This document shows, in pieces, positions 21,935 to 27,069 of a stretch of 32,448 nucleotides of DNA (the first letter of the stretch is position 1; each line of letters opens with the position of its first letter). The position numbers were made by a program, and so were the translations under genes. The notes beneath the pieces are model-generated. The model was not told where the DNA came from and searched no databases. It worked only from the letters and a program-made list of their open reading frames with translations. Source of the DNA: Clostridia bacterium (GTDB taxonomy: Bacteria; Bacillota; Clostridia; Oscillospirales; CAG-272). The DNA lies in NCBI GenBank assembly GCA_017502975.1, contig JAFVTV010000048.1, positions 1 to 32,448 of the forward strand, in the 5' to 3' direction.

Positions 21935-21940
21935 AAACAA

Positions 21941-21967
21941 AAAATCCCCCCAAACGGGGGGATTTTT
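21941..21967 (+). terminator. Intrinsic terminator after thrS
   Basis: AAATCCCCCC / GGGGGGATTT with loop AAAC and a final T-run. Confidence 0.9.
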
Positions 21968-22107
21968 GCTTAAAATGCATTCATGCTTTATCTGATTTTG
22001 AAAAATGTCAAAAGAATCTTTGGCAGGTTTTGGCGCGTTTTACGGCATGATAAGTAGAGGATCTCTTTTTTAAGGGTGAATCAAGACATGGCAAAAGGAG
22101 AAGCTTT

Positions 22108-22707
22108 ATGAAGGAAGCAACAAAAGAAAAGAGCTGCGAGTTGCTGTCTGACGAGCAGATTATCGATCTTTATTTTGCGCGCGAGGAGCGTGCAATTAAG
22201 GAAACCGATCATAAGTACGGTAAATATTTGTTTACCATTGCTTATAATATCGTGCAGGATACACTCGATTGTGAGGAATGTCTTAACGATACGTATTTAA
22301 ATACGTGGAACCGCATTCCCCCCACACGCCCCTCCATATTTCACGCATTTCTTTCAAAGATTATGCGAAACATTGCAGTTGACAGATACCGTCACAATAA
22401 GGCGCAAAAGCGTGCTCCCTCAGAAATGCTGTTAACGCTTGAGGAACTTGATTCCTGCACGCCAAATGAGATGAGTATGGATGAGGAACTTGCGATTGCC
22501 GAGCTTAGTCGCTTGCTAAACGATTACTTAAAGGGGCTTAGCGACCGCGAGCGACTATTGTTTGTTTGTCGCTACTATTACGCAGATAAAATATCCGAGA
22601 TTGCAAAAATGCTGCAAGCGGGTGAGCGCAGCGTGTACCGTGAACTGGCGGCATTGAGAGAGGGTTTGCGCCAGCGTCTTGAAAAGGAGGGTTTTTGCTG
22701 TGAGTAA
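22108..22707 (+). CDS. ECF-type RNA polymerase sigma factor
   Basis: A 199-residue sigma-70-family protein with only regions 2 and 4, as in ECF sigma factors. Region 2 spans about 40-105 (ECLNDTYLNTWNRI, then FLSKIMRNIAVDRYRHNKAQ). Region 4 spans about 135-195, ending in a helix-turn-helix (SEIAKMLQAGERSVYRELAALREGL). AAAAGGAG stands nine bases before the ATG. Its end overlaps the next gene by eight bases, so the two are made together. The overlap and the partner's membrane topology suggest the partner holds this sigma factor inactive until an outside signal arrives. No clear sigma-A promoter is seen in the 140 bases upstream. The stretch at 22007-22055 (TGTCAAAAGAATC onward) is a candidate for an autoregulated ECF promoter. 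Confidence 0.92.
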   Translation: MKEATKEKSCELLSDEQIIDLYFAREERAIKETDHKYGKYLFTIAYNIVQDTLDCEECLNDTYLNTWNRIPPTRPSIFHAFLSKIMRNIAVDRYRHNKAQKRAPSEMLLTLEELDSCTPNEMSMDEELAIAELSRLLNDYLKGLSDRERLLFVCRYYYADKISEIAKMLQAGERSVYRELAALREGLRQRLEKEGFCCE

Positions 22708-25603
22708 GAAGCAAAAAAGAAATCTTGAGGCGATCTCACGCATTGATAATGAGATTGTGGATAAGGCATCACAGGAGCGCTCCAATCTTTTATTGGCACT
22801 GAAAAAGCGCATCAAGAAAGCGTGGATAATCCGTGGCGGTGCGATGGCGGCAAGCCTGGCTTTAATCGCAACGACTGTGCTTCTTGTGGTGCTGCTTGCT
22901 AAGGAGGTGCCCGTATATACGGGTATGACAGTGTCTAATTATGCGCCTGCTGCAACTGCTAGTGCAACATTGCCTACCTATCTTGATTCCGGCAATGGTA
23001 ATGGAAATGCCTACGGGAACAAGCATCTTGCGGGCGATCATACCGATGCCGATAAAACAATCGGCGAGGATCCCTTTGAAAAGCCAATTGGCGATGCCGT
23101 GGGTGCGTTTAGCGTACAAAGTGCCGAGCCGCGTTATTATGCAAAGCCCAACGAGGACGTATATATCACCGTACATATCGACAATCCCGATAATTTTGTG
23201 ATCCTTTCCTTTACCCTCAACGGTAAAATGTATTCCTCTTATATGTTTGAGGAGGGGTCGGACCTTGAAAATCTCATTTTGAAGGTGAACGTGGGTGAGG
23301 TCGAAGGTATGGTTTCCTATACCATTGACGCCATTAAGTATGTTGACGGCACCAAAATCAAGGACGTTGAGATTGGCGGTGAGCGCACGGTTGAGATCGG
23401 CGTTTACACCGAAAAGCAGCCGGCAGCCGCCTTTAGCGATTTGGAGATTGGCTTTAACAGTATCTCCTTTGCGGTGGATGTTTCGGATACCAAAAATCTT
23501 TTTGAAACACTGACGGGTAGCGTGGAAGCCGTGCTTTACAACGGTGATAGGATTGTCGCGCGCAAGGATATTTCTGCTACAGGAAAAACAACAGTTACCT
23601 TTGAGGGGCTCGCCACGGGGGCATTGTATGAGTGCGCAATTATTGCGACCTATGATGCGTTTGACGGCGAGGGGGTTGCACGCCATATTCTTTCCACGTA
23701 TGCCGCTTACACCAAGTCGATTGTCTTGTTTGACCGGGTGGAGATTGGTACAAACACCCTTTCGTTTGCCTTTCTTTGGGATCAGGCGTTTGCCACAAAA
23801 ACCGTAATGGGCTTGGCACTTTATCAAAACGACACCAAGGTAAGGGATATTGACGTGAGTGCCACCATAGTTGGCGACCTTATTTCCGACACCACCTATA
23901 CGCTGGTTGCTACCTATCAAAACGGCAGCGCCGAGGAGCAGATTAGCATTACCTTTACCACTGACGCGCTGTTTGTGACCGTTAATCAGTATCTTGAGGA
24001 GCTTGACGGCACCTACACGCTGTTCGAAACCGTGACCGAAACAGTGGAGCAGGGTACTGTTTACACACCCGCGCTTGGCAGCCACGTAGGCTTTACCACT
24101 CCCACCGTCGAGCCCGTTGCCGTGACCGATTGCCCCCACACCTTTGAATGTTACTTTGAGCGTACCGCATATGAGGTAACATTTCATTATAACAGTGCCC
24201 AGGGCATTGTTACCGAAAGCATTAAGTTTGGCAAGCCCCTTGCCACGCCCACGCGCGAGGGCTTTGCCTTCGAGGGCTGGTATCTTGATGCCGCTCTCAC
24301 AACGCCCGCGGGCGACACGATGCCCGCAAAACCCATCTCCGTTTACGCCAAATGGCTGACCGAAACTTCCACCGTGGATTTTTCCTACGAAATAAATGAA
24401 GGCAAGGTAACCATTACGGATGGTCAATTCTTGGATGTCGAACAGCTTGTGATCCCCGCCTATATCGGCGGTTATCCCGTCACTGCCATCGCATGGAACG
24501 GTCAGCGCATGTATTATGTTGGCGTTGCCTATGGTATCGTGAGTGTCACGATTCCCGATACCGTCACCGCCATCGGCAAGCAGGCGTTCAATGGCTGGCG
24601 GCAACTTGCGAGTATCACGATCCCCGCGAGTGTCACCACCATCGGCAGAAGTGCGTTCTCGGATTGCTCGGGCCTTACGAGTATTACGATCCCCGATAGC
24701 GTCACCACCCTCGGCTATTATGCGTTCTCGGGTTGCTCGGGTCTTACGAGCATCACGATTTCCGATAGCATTACCAGTATTGCCGATAATACGTTCTATG
24801 CCTGCACCAGCCTTGCGAGCATTACGCTTCCCGATAGTGTTACCAGTATCGGCGAGTATGCGTTCTCCAGATGCACAGGGCTTGTGAGTATTGAAATTCC
24901 GGGCGGAGTCACCACCATCGGCGACTGGGCGTTCGAGGGTTGCACAGGGCTTACCAGCATTGAGATCCCCAATGGTGTTACTACCATCGGTAAGGGTGCG
25001 TTCCAAGATTGCACGAGCCTTGTGAATATCACGATTTCCAATAGCGTCATGAGCATCGGCGAGCGTGCGTTCAAGGGTTGCACGGCGCTTTCGAGCATCA
25101 CGCTACCCTTTGTCGGTGCAAGCTTGAACGGAACAAGTAACATGTATTTTAGATATATATTCGGCACTGTTCCCGCATCTTTGAAGACCGTTGTGATCAC
25201 GGGTGGTGAGAGCATCGGCGCGTCTGCGTTCCAAGATTGCACGAGCCTTGTGAATATCACGATTTCCAATAGCGTCACCAGTATTGGCGCGTATGCGTTC
25301 AAGGGTTGCACGGCGCTTTCGAGCATCAGCTTTGGTGCAAACAGTCAACTTGAGAGCATTGGCTTTAATGCGTTTGGTGGTTGCACAAGCCTTTTGAGCA
25401 TCACGATCCCCGCGAGTGTCACCACTATCGACCCTTGTGCGTTCGATAATTGCACGAGCCTTGCGAGCGTGGACTTTGCGAATACCTCGGGGTGGTATAG
25501 TTCTGACGGTTATGAGATCTCCGCCACAGATCTGGAAGATACTTCTACCGCAGCAAAGTATTTGACAAAGATCCATTGCTATTACTACTGGCGGCGCCGC
25601 TGA
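22700..25603 (+). CDS. Membrane-anchored BspA-type LRR protein, candidate anti-sigma factor
   Basis: A 967-residue single-pass protein. The start is GTG 22700, with AAGGAGGG nine bases before it, overlapping the sigma gene. Residues 1-43 are basic and cytoplasmic and contain LEAISRIDNEIVDKA, resembling the short heads of anti-sigma proteins next to clostridial ECF factors. One membrane helix lies at about 44-68. Outside come a Gly/Asn/Asp-rich linker (~90-120), two beta-sandwich-like segments (~135-435), an InlB B-repeat/Flg_new unit (~490-553, with FEGWYLDAALTTPAG), and about 13 BspA-type leucine-rich repeats (~613-920). The tail is short, with no LPxTG or other wall anchor. Sigma partner and head suggest signalling; the outer part suggests binding to host or microbial surface ligands. 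The anti-sigma role is inferred, not shown. Confidence 0.8.
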   Translation: MSKKQKRNLEAISRIDNEIVDKASQERSNLLLALKKRIKKAWIIRGGAMAASLALIATTVLLVVLLAKEVPVYTGMTVSNYAPAATASATLPTYLDSGNGNGNAYGNKHLAGDHTDADKTIGEDPFEKPIGDAVGAFSVQSAEPRYYAKPNEDVYITVHIDNPDNFVILSFTLNGKMYSSYMFEEGSDLENLILKVNVGEVEGMVSYTIDAIKYVDGTKIKDVEIGGERTVEIGVYTEKQPAAAFSDLEIGFNSISFAVDVSDTKNLFETLTGSVEAVLYNGDRIVARKDISATGKTTVTFEGLATGALYECAIIATYDAFDGEGVARHILSTYAAYTKSIVLFDRVEIGTNTLSFAFLWDQAFATKTVMGLALYQNDTKVRDIDVSATIVGDLISDTTYTLVATYQNGSAEEQISITFTTDALFVTVNQYLEELDGTYTLFETVTETVEQGTVYTPALGSHVGFTTPTVEPVAVTDCPHTFECYFERTAYEVTFHYNSAQGIVTESIKFGKPLATPTREGFAFEGWYLDAALTTPAGDTMPAKPISVYAKWLTETSTVDFSYEINEGKVTITDGQFLDVEQLVIPAYIGGYPVTAIAWNGQRMYYVGVAYGIVSVTIPDTVTAIGKQAFNGWRQLASITIPASVTTIGRSAFSDCSGLTSITIPDSVTTLGYYAFSGCSGLTSITISDSITSIADNTFYACTSLASITLPDSVTSIGEYAFSRCTGLVSIEIPGGVTTIGDWAFEGCTGLTSIEIPNGVTTIGKGAFQDCTSLVNITISNSVMSIGERAFKGCTALSSITLPFVGASLNGTSNMYFRYIFGTVPASLKTVVITGGESIGASAFQDCTSLVNITISNSVTSIGAYAFKGCTALSSISFGANSQLESIGFNAFGGCTSLLSITIPASVTTIDPCAFDNCTSLASVDFANTSGWYSSDGYEISATDLEDTSTAAKYLTKIHCYYYWRRR
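24539..25461 (+). repeat. BspA-type leucine-rich repeat tract with an internal duplication
   Basis: About 13 units of mostly 23 residues (69 bases) follow the pattern xSITIPDSVTSIGxxAFxxC. One unit (about 25100-25190) is longer and divergent. DNA copies 228 bases apart are nearly identical: 24998-25049 equals 25226-25277 (52 bases), and 25066-25100 equals 25294-25328 (35 bases). This shows a recent unit duplication or gene conversion within the tract. Confidence 0.92.
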
Positions 25604-25636
25604 TTACCATAGTGCCTAATACTCAAGAAAATGAAA

Positions 25637-25660
25637 CGCGCCTTGCCGCGGCAAGGCGCG
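25637..25660. other. Perfect GC-rich inverted repeat
   Basis: A self-complementary 24-base stem (CGCGCCTTGCCG / CGGCAAGGCGCG) lies just before the main terminator, between converging genes. It may reinforce termination of the LRR gene. Confidence 0.6.
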
Positions 25661-25666
25661 TGACAA

Positions 25667-25701
25667 AAAAGCCGATGCAAGCTCTGCTTGCATCGGCTTT
25701 T
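25667..25701. terminator. Bidirectional intrinsic terminator
   Basis: A 16-base-pair stem (AAAAGCCGATGCAAGC / GCTTGCATCGGCTTTT) with loop TCT has an A-run on the left and a T-run on the right. It ends the LRR gene and the leftward GH28-like gene. Confidence 0.92.
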
Positions 25702-25710
25702 GTTATGTAA

Positions 25711-27069
25711 TTATACCTGTTTGAAGCGAGTAACATTTTCAAGCAGCATCGCGTCGCGCGCGTCAGGCTTTTCGGTTGAAAAGTCTACGTTATAAAGCCT
25801 GAGGTTGTTTACGTGCTTTGCAACAAAGCCGTGCACGGGGGCTTTTGTGCCGATGTACTTCACGCCGGGGTATTGGTTTCTGAGCTCGTTTAACACGATG
25901 TTTCTGTCTTCCTTCGTGCCGCCGCCGGGCGATACGAACTGGATGTTCGCAAGGCTCACGTTGTCAATGATGCTGTCGGGTTGACCTGCCAAGAGAAGCG
26001 GGAAATGGTGGGGCGTGCCAACCAGCTTATTTGCATAGTAATCTCTCGAGTTTTGCGCCATGGTGGCGGTGATCGTTTCGGTGTAGGGACCTGTGACGAT
26101 GACGTTTGAGATCGCCACGTTTTTCATCACACCGATCTTCGTGCCCTCGGGGCCGCGTGCGCGGTCACTGACGAGGAGCGCGATCGGAACGCCAACGTTA
26201 CGCATGGTGATATTGGAAACGGAAAGCCCCTCCACGCGCGCGCCGTCCGAGGTCATCAGGAAAATACCCTCAAGACGGGTGTCGTAAACGGTGCAGCCCG
26301 TAACGGTGGTGTTGATAAAGGCGGAGTTTGACTCGGTGCCAAACTTGATGGCAGAAGCGTGGCTTCTTACCACACAGCCCGTAATGGTGAGGTTTTCCAT
26401 CGCCTGAAAACGGCCGAGTGTGTAGGAGCATTTCGGAACGATCGCGTCATCGCCCGCGTCAACGATACAGTCGGAGATCACCACGTTCTTGCAGGAGTCG
26501 GGGCTGATGCCGTCAACGTGTGTGAAGACGTTTAGACCCGAAATAATGACGTTCTCGCACCCCGCGACGTACACGGCAAGGTCGGTTGCGTTGCGGATCA
26601 CCAGATCCTTGATGACAACATTGGTGCACTCCTTAAAGGCAACGACCTTACAGCCGCGGCACCAATGGCAGCCCTTTGCACCGGGGAACTCGGTAAAATC
26701 AAGATCCTCCCAAGCCGATTGCATATCGATCTTGCCGTAGCCCGTCAGGGCAATATCGTTTGCGTTGTCGGCGTGAAAGAGGCTGTGGTGGAAGAAGCTG
26801 TGGCTGCGGTCTTGAAATTCGGTGTTGGCGGCATCCTCCTCGTAAGGATCAAAATCAAGGCGATTGGTGCTGCCGAGAATAGTTGCACCCTTATCAAGCC
26901 ATACGTGCACGTTTGATTTAAAGTGCATCGTACCGCAAAGGTATTTGCCCTCGGGGATATATACCGTACCGCCGCCTGTTGCAGCGCAAGTGTCGATCGC
27001 CTTTTGAATGGCTTTTGAATCAAGTGCTACGCCATCACCAAGCGCGCCGTATTCCTTTACGTTAAACAT
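25711..27069 (-). CDS. Glycoside hydrolase family 28-like (polygalacturonase) beta-helix protein
   Basis: A 452-residue right-handed parallel beta-helix protein. The start VKEYGALGDGVALDSKAIQKAI is the standard head of pectin-acting and related beta-helix enzymes. GH28 active-site positions are partly visible: D186 (THVDGISPDS), D207-D208 (VDAGDDAIVPK), H237 (RSHASAIKFG) and K242. The classic GHG and RIK motifs are altered, as in many bacterial GH28-like proteins. There is no signal peptide, so it should act in the cytoplasm, probably on imported oligosaccharides such as galacturonides; the substrate is inferred. AAAGGAG precedes the ATG. It stands alone, with its own promoter and no transporter or sugar-acid genes beside it. 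Confidence 0.83.
   Translation of the reverse strand: MFNVKEYGALGDGVALDSKAIQKAIDTCAATGGGTVYIPEGKYLCGTMHFKSNVHVWLDKGATILGSTNRLDFDPYEEDAANTEFQDRSHSFFHHSLFHADNANDIALTGYGKIDMQSAWEDLDFTEFPGAKGCHWCRGCKVVAFKECTNVVIKDLVIRNATDLAVYVAGCENVIISGLNVFTHVDGISPDSCKNVVISDCIVDAGDDAIVPKCSYTLGRFQAMENLTITGCVVRSHASAIKFGTESNSAFINTTVTGCTVYDTRLEGIFLMTSDGARVEGLSVSNITMRNVGVPIALLVSDRARGPEGTKIGVMKNVAISNVIVTGPYTETITATMAQNSRDYYANKLVGTPHHFPLLLAGQPDSIIDNVSLANIQFVSPGGGTKEDRNIVLNELRNQYPGVKYIGTKAPVHGFVAKHVNNLRLYNVDFSTEKPDARDAMLLENVTRFKQV

Follow-up and report, generated by a model that had tools for sequence, protein, structure and literature searches.

The window, by which we mean the whole stretch of DNA analysed here, comprises positions 1 to 32,448 of contig JAFVTV010000048.1 (C49 in our labelling) from a draft assembly of a Clostridia bacterium (GCA_017502975.1; 1.66 Mb, 84% complete), whose closest named relatives are mainly ruminant-gut Clostridia/Oscillospiraceae metagenome assemblies. 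It carries a two-gene locus in which an extracytoplasmic function (ECF) sigma factor precedes a membrane partner, in the order thrS, terminator-like hairpin, ECF sigma gene, membrane partner gene, terminator-like hairpins (Table 1). A sequence-only reading had suggested that the pair forms a surface-sensing sigma/anti-sigma system, and the layout on which it leaned is confirmed: the two genes overlap by 8 bp, and the partner is a single-pass protein with a short inner head, here placed at residues 1-41, and a large ectodomain with an InlB-type repeat and BspA-type leucine-rich repeats (LRR). We consider it very likely that the partner is an anti-sigma factor, and likely that the pair as a whole is a self-contained sigma/anti-sigma switch.

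ECF sigma factors are defined by having regions 2 and 4 only, in about 200 residues, and the window protein has just this composition. Sigma70_r2, Sigma70_ECF and TIGR02937 match it above their cut-offs and the r4 model slightly below, and its top NCBIfam matches are general ECF models (best 25 of 63 families). The same type of sigma factor is present in 35 of 59 genomes, the window's own plus relatives (E<=1e-8), and in 121 of 148 searched genomes of one family (E<=1e-15). Pooling these searches with the one for the closest named relatives gave 262 distinct sigma genes with readable ends, which are best matches and no random sample; from the matches listed in the family-wide search, 80 places were taken in addition to the loci it returned, skipping those with internal stops, a pair of near-duplicates and the end of the list. 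The overlap with the next gene is exactly 4 or 8 bp in 226 of the 262 (187 and 39, respectively), and a membrane helix lies inside the first 110 residues in 173 of the 176 partners of at least 80 residues; two of the three without one are the sigma reading frame picked by the script, and the third, L106, is unexplained. Searching from the other side, a profile of the head and membrane helix finds two places in the window's genome, each at a sigma gene, and across 118 genomes of the class it has matches in 21 (E<=1e-4); at all 12 loci it returned, the window included, a sigma gene lies directly upstream. The conserved pairing of this head with ECF genes that had been proposed is thus borne out from both sides, and with it the gene pairing expected of an anti-sigma factor. 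No natural fusion of sigma factor and head was seen in a scan of the 176 partners. The window's genome holds a second sigma/head pair (G000:C35:5855, L033) with a small ectodomain of unknown type; at G022:C7:20981-21534 (L050/L202) a sigma gene of the family is split across two frames and apparently broken.

The head follows a family motif whose commonest residues are roughly [LIM]-[GS]-x-I-D-[DEP]-[DE]-[LIY]-[IV]-E-x-A, with Asp at the position of window D16 in 197 of 254 partners. The string SRIDNEIVDKA, singled out by the sequence-only reading, is indeed there, yet it is one form of this motif and not peculiar to the window protein. The first 80 residues of the partner match no Pfam or NCBIfam model at E<=1. 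In an alignment of 254 sigma/partner rows (8 of the 262 were dropped beforehand), covariation predicts contacts of the head with sigma region 4, namely of sigma residues 142, 149 and 160 with head residues 18, 22 and 27; the signal is seen in the head and absent from the adjoining membrane helix, and couplings outside region 4 are few and weaker (L114-N8, I44-Q5). The 18 contacts were first chosen on all data; in a repeat, contacts and log-odds were both taken from the first 173 pairs alone, the alignment itself being built from both sets of pairs. Binding of the head to sigma regions 2/4 had been anticipated, and its contact with region 4 is what covariation now supports; by covariation alone, the family as a whole shows the contact with a cognate sigma factor that marks an anti-sigma factor. 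Inhibition of the sigma factor through this contact would follow by inference. The predicted contacts make sigma/anti-sigma specificity testable, and the signal is not needed for this.

How the sigma factor might be set free is suggested by the membrane helix. Ala occupies the position of window A50 in 224 of 254 partners, that of A51 in 233 and both in 212, and the window's genome encodes a Peptidase_M50 (site-2-type) protease, an unspecific companion found in 14 of 14 control genomes. There is a precedent in RsgI, where RseP cuts the membrane helix and ClpXP reads an XAA sequence (excerpts of PMC12203970). Because of the single membrane helix, the Ala pair, the protease gene and this precedent, the sigma factor would probably be released by intramembrane proteolysis.

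Outside the membrane, the partner carries a stalk of FN3-like and further beta domains, followed by the InlB-type repeat and LRR_5 repeats, which place its tip among BspA-type LRR domains. The first stalk domain appears split, with its first strand at the membrane and a linker whose spacing differs among relatives. It occurs at 13 places in 11 of 59 genomes, 10 of them sigma-linked partners. N162-P163 is present in 21 of 21 aligned stalks (L210, which has no such domain, was left out); invariance in another stalk alignment proves nothing, since its selection pattern demanded this Pro together with VPVYxGMTV. The Asn-Pro pair had prompted the idea of a distant RsgI_M (autocleaving) domain, which was rejected: profile comparison with RsgI_M-like segments, three sequences standing on one side, gave a probability of <1%, so we make no claim of autocleavage for the stalk.

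The same head carries very different ectodomains in other loci, as the expectation that head and sigma factor co-occur while the ectodomain varies would have it. Four partners bear serpin domains (E 1.7e-81 to 5.8e-50) behind the sigma-linked head and membrane helix; two of them (L186 and L081) have an inhibitory-looking hinge, EKGxxAAAFT, and these partners are possibly protease sensors wired to a sigma factor. Three others (L135, L152, L158) carry Peptidase_M23 on the same head and stalk, with HxH in L152 and L158 and not in L135. In L064, L094 and L129 a pattern search found an ECF-type head followed by an RsgI_M-like segment that bears DVNP[SG], and these segments are a link between this sigma/head family and RsgI; among 60 more distant partners, a set that held L094 alone of the three, one was matched by Pfam RsgI_M. 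On another contig of the window's genome (C20), L256:4762-7533 (minus strand) encodes a protein of 924 residues in which a MerR DNA-binding domain (9-79) and a membrane helix near 150 are combined with three InlB repeats and BspA-type LRRs (LRR_5); it is likely a one-component regulator in the membrane that shares its outer kit with the window partner. Whether the LRR tip of the window partner is a sensor we regard as an even question.

The sequence-only reading had pointed to 21970-22107 as the place for the sigma gene's own promoter, and a candidate was found there, about 60 bp ahead of the sigma start and conserved in all four sequences of an alignment of the window with three orthologues. 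The window has one copy; L133, L189 and L134 have two tandem copies upstream of the sigma gene. A first pattern gave, in the window's genome, an exact site at the operon and two sites with two mismatches (C35, C41), against 2 in the control. A pattern including the T tracts gave 7 exact sites in four genomes, all upstream of the sigma/partner operon, and 2 one-mismatch sites elsewhere, against 0 in the control; as the pattern was derived from these operon promoters, the informative part of the scan is the absence of other sites. That the operon is the main target of its own sigma factor is plausible, if a little doubtful.

Taken together, the pair could work as follows. A head helix around IDNEIVDKA would pack on sigma region 4, and the head would thereby keep the ECF sigma factor at the membrane, away from RNA polymerase. 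Outside, the FN3-like stalk would bear the InlB repeat and the curved LRR surface, which might touch a ligand or a neighbouring surface. By analogy with RsgI, such contact, or external cleavage, would expose the membrane helix to an RseP-type protease, and the released head, ending near the conserved Ala-Ala, would be degraded by a Clp protease; the freed sigma factor would then transcribe from GGCAG-N16-CGRC, its own operon first. A wider picture is tempting and rather tentative: we speculate that ruminant-gut Oscillospiraceae have an array of one-gene surface receptors. In each, a short head would bind sigma region 4, the membrane helix would hide an Ala-Ala degradation tag, and the outer module would be interchangeable, LRR modules reading proteins or surfaces and serpin or M23 modules reading proteases and the wall. 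The LRR module would be wired to transcription at least twice in one genome, through an ECF sigma factor and through a MerR DNA-binding domain. In the window's clade the stalk would be a split FN3-like domain with its first strand at the membrane and a floppy linker; therefore a cut in the linker, or a pull on the LRR, could strip off the first strand and start proteolysis.

The alternative that survives best, though we think it rather unlikely, is that the LRR protein is mainly an output, an adhesin, and the head a governor of its expression: when the LRR protein is scarce, sigma factor is free and more is made, with no external ligand. The exact T-tract sites, all seven at the operon, would suit such a loop, with the derivation of the pattern from these promoters kept in mind, and LRR and InlB domains are a typical feature of surface lipoproteins; in the window's genome, four LRR proteins were read that begin with a lipobox-like sequence. 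The very different ectodomains on the same head, serpin and M23 included, and the conserved Ala-Ala in the membrane helix speak against it, and are more easily explained by an ectodomain that gates release. It is highly improbable that the head acts positively, binding the sigma factor as a tether at the membrane or as a helper: covariation gives contact and not its sign, but a sigma gene overlapping an anti-sigma gene is a usual layout, and the partners known to bind sigma 4 in ECF pairs are inhibitors, through helix 1 of class I domains and of CnrY (excerpts of PMC7406223). Hardly conceivable is a chance operon of two unrelated genes with an ordinary basic membrane anchor for a head; short basic stretches ahead of membrane helices are common, but neither the conserved motif and the pairing at 226 of 262 sigma genes nor the sigma-specific covariation that stops short of the membrane helix fits it.

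Several observations weigh against the sigma/anti-sigma switch that we prefer. R149/K22, the pair with the strongest coupling, carries like charges in the window, as in 9 of 254 rows; the covariation model ranks the window head 35 of 254 for the window sigma factor, with which the C35 head scores above the window's own (2.46 vs -0.72). Conversely, the C35 sigma factor favours the head of its own pair, at rank 32 of 254. Between the two sets of pairs, the coupling maps correlate weakly (0.17 over the head columns, 0.08 over the membrane helix), their agreement being in the top pairs, and AlphaFold2, which predicts head helices at 3-12 and 17-36, has low confidence there (block means 46-61). With the like-charged pair, the rank and the better score of the C35 head, the reading of the head is firm at family level and less so as to the insulation of the window pair. 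The Ala-Ala of the membrane helix may be a helix-packing feature. No second promoter target was established: a loose pattern gave 67 sites in the four genomes (16, 12, 16 and 23) vs 43 in the reversed control (9, 16, 8 and 10), judged by their letters alone and not by the genes behind them, and the operon sites stand out by their T tracts. Finally, three lipoprotein-like proteins (L248, L249, L250) have the stalk domain and no head, and none has a sigma gene of the family on its own contig (E<=1e-8); L248 retains IPVYKGMTVS behind its lipobox. With 3 of 13 occurrences headless, the stalk as a dedicated signalling domain was rejected as a strict claim.

As for the surroundings, the hairpin 3' of thrS sets the pair apart from the upstream gene; the hairpin scan called 7 terminator-like sites in the region vs 4.2 in shuffles. 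A GH28/pectate-lyase-like gene (25711-27069, minus strand) converges on the pair, is kept alongside in L133 and is fragmented in L189.

Table 1. Features of the sigma/partner locus (window positions) and, in the last row, partners with serpin ectodomains at other loci.
Feature	Position	Strand	Basis or remark
Terminator-like hairpin, 3' of thrS	21940..21967	.	Hairpin scan
Predicted autoregulatory promoter of ECF type: TGGCAG (22021-22026), 16-nt spacer with T tracts, CGGCA (22043-22047)	22021..22047	+	
ECF sigma factor, 199 aa	22108..22707	+	Profile matches
Ribosome-binding site AAGGAGG of partner gene	22684..22690	+	Sequence
Partner, 967 aa: putative anti-sigma head, membrane helix, FN3-like stalk, InlB repeat, BspA-type LRR	22700..25603	+	
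Cytoplasmic head, residues 1-41	22700..22822	+	Residues 11-27 covary with sigma residues 133-160
Membrane helix, residues 42-66 (Ala50-Ala51 at 22847-22852)	22823..22897	+	AlphaFold2
Juxtamembrane strand VPVYTGMTV (70-78), predicted first strand of stalk domain	22907..22933	+	
Low-complexity linker, about 83-143, predicted disordered	22946..23128	+	Predicted local distance difference test (pLDDT) <50 over most
Body of conserved FN3-like stalk domain 1, residues 146-235	23135..23404	+	
Second and third beta domains, about 242-349 and 354-449	23423..24046	+	
InlB-type (Flg_new) repeat, residues 491-551	24170..24352	+	36 bits, cut-off 27
BspA-type LRR domain, residues about 556-966	24365..25597	+	Profile matches, AlphaFold2
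Second hairpin	25636..25661	called on minus	Hairpin scan
Hairpin then TTTTGTT, likely terminator of the two-gene operon	25671..25697	.	Read from sequence, absent from scan output
Serpin-ended partners	L177:10558-11997; L186:10546-11979; L081:5412-6995; L083:1064-2581	L081 minus	

ECF sigma factors are abundant, and here a single signature, recognisable by sequence, connects three parts: the sigma factor, its short head and a sensor that can be exchanged. A 2021 review counted 102 of 157 ECF groups without mechanistic or functional insight (excerpts of PMC8103513). If the LRR or serpin tips are indeed sensors, the bacteria that bear them would turn the presence of neighbouring surfaces or of proteases directly into transcription.

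Among known systems, SigI/RsgI of Clostridium thermocellum and Bacillus resembles the pair in its two-gene sigma/anti-sigma layout, its short inner domain, its single XAA-containing membrane helix, a domain adjoining the membrane and exchangeable outer sensors, which in RsgI are carbohydrate-binding, glycosidase or peptidase-like (excerpts of PMC12203970). In contrast, the window sigma factor is ECF-type with a region 4, with which the head covaries, and the tip is an LRR domain; the second domain of the stalk resembles the RsgI4 sensor 7cg1, among many FN3 folds. At E<=1, neither the whole partner nor its first 80 residues matched an RsgI family, HMMER filters dropping most weak matches. The marks of an RsgI protein are an RsgI inner domain and an RsgI_M central domain. 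As no RsgI domain was matched and the sigma factor is ECF-type, we do not file the window partner as an RsgI.

Class I anti-sigma domains (ASDI) have at least 50 residues, with or without Hx3Cx2C, and class II domains consist of two short helices, the first on sigma 4 and the second on sigma 2 (excerpts of PMC7406223). Judged by length and motif, the window head, of about 41-43 residues and without Hx3Cx2C, is too short for class I, and is class II-like in size and sigma-4 contact. CnrY of Cupriavidus, of class II, is alike in its very short head, in its two helices, which in the window head are predicted with low confidence, and in contact with region 4, a likeness of size and contact; its second helix also binds sigma 2 (PMC7406223, same excerpts), whereas sigma 2 couplings are weak in the window family and the window partner has a large outer domain. 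RsiV, the lysozyme receptor paired with SigV, is likewise an anti-sigma factor in the membrane; a protein ligand binds to its outer domain, and proteolysis brings about release (excerpts of PMC4183432 and PMC5014341), but the outer domain of the window partner is LRR and not an RsiV domain. No LRR-, serpin- or M23-ended ECF anti-sigma factor appeared among the matches listed in open-licence literature, as far as the excerpts go. Unlike the BspA-type LRR surface proteins (4fs7; PcpA, 4cp6), the window partner has no lipid or wall anchor and is held by its sigma-binding head and membrane helix, and the pair looks like a member of an undescribed sigma/head family.
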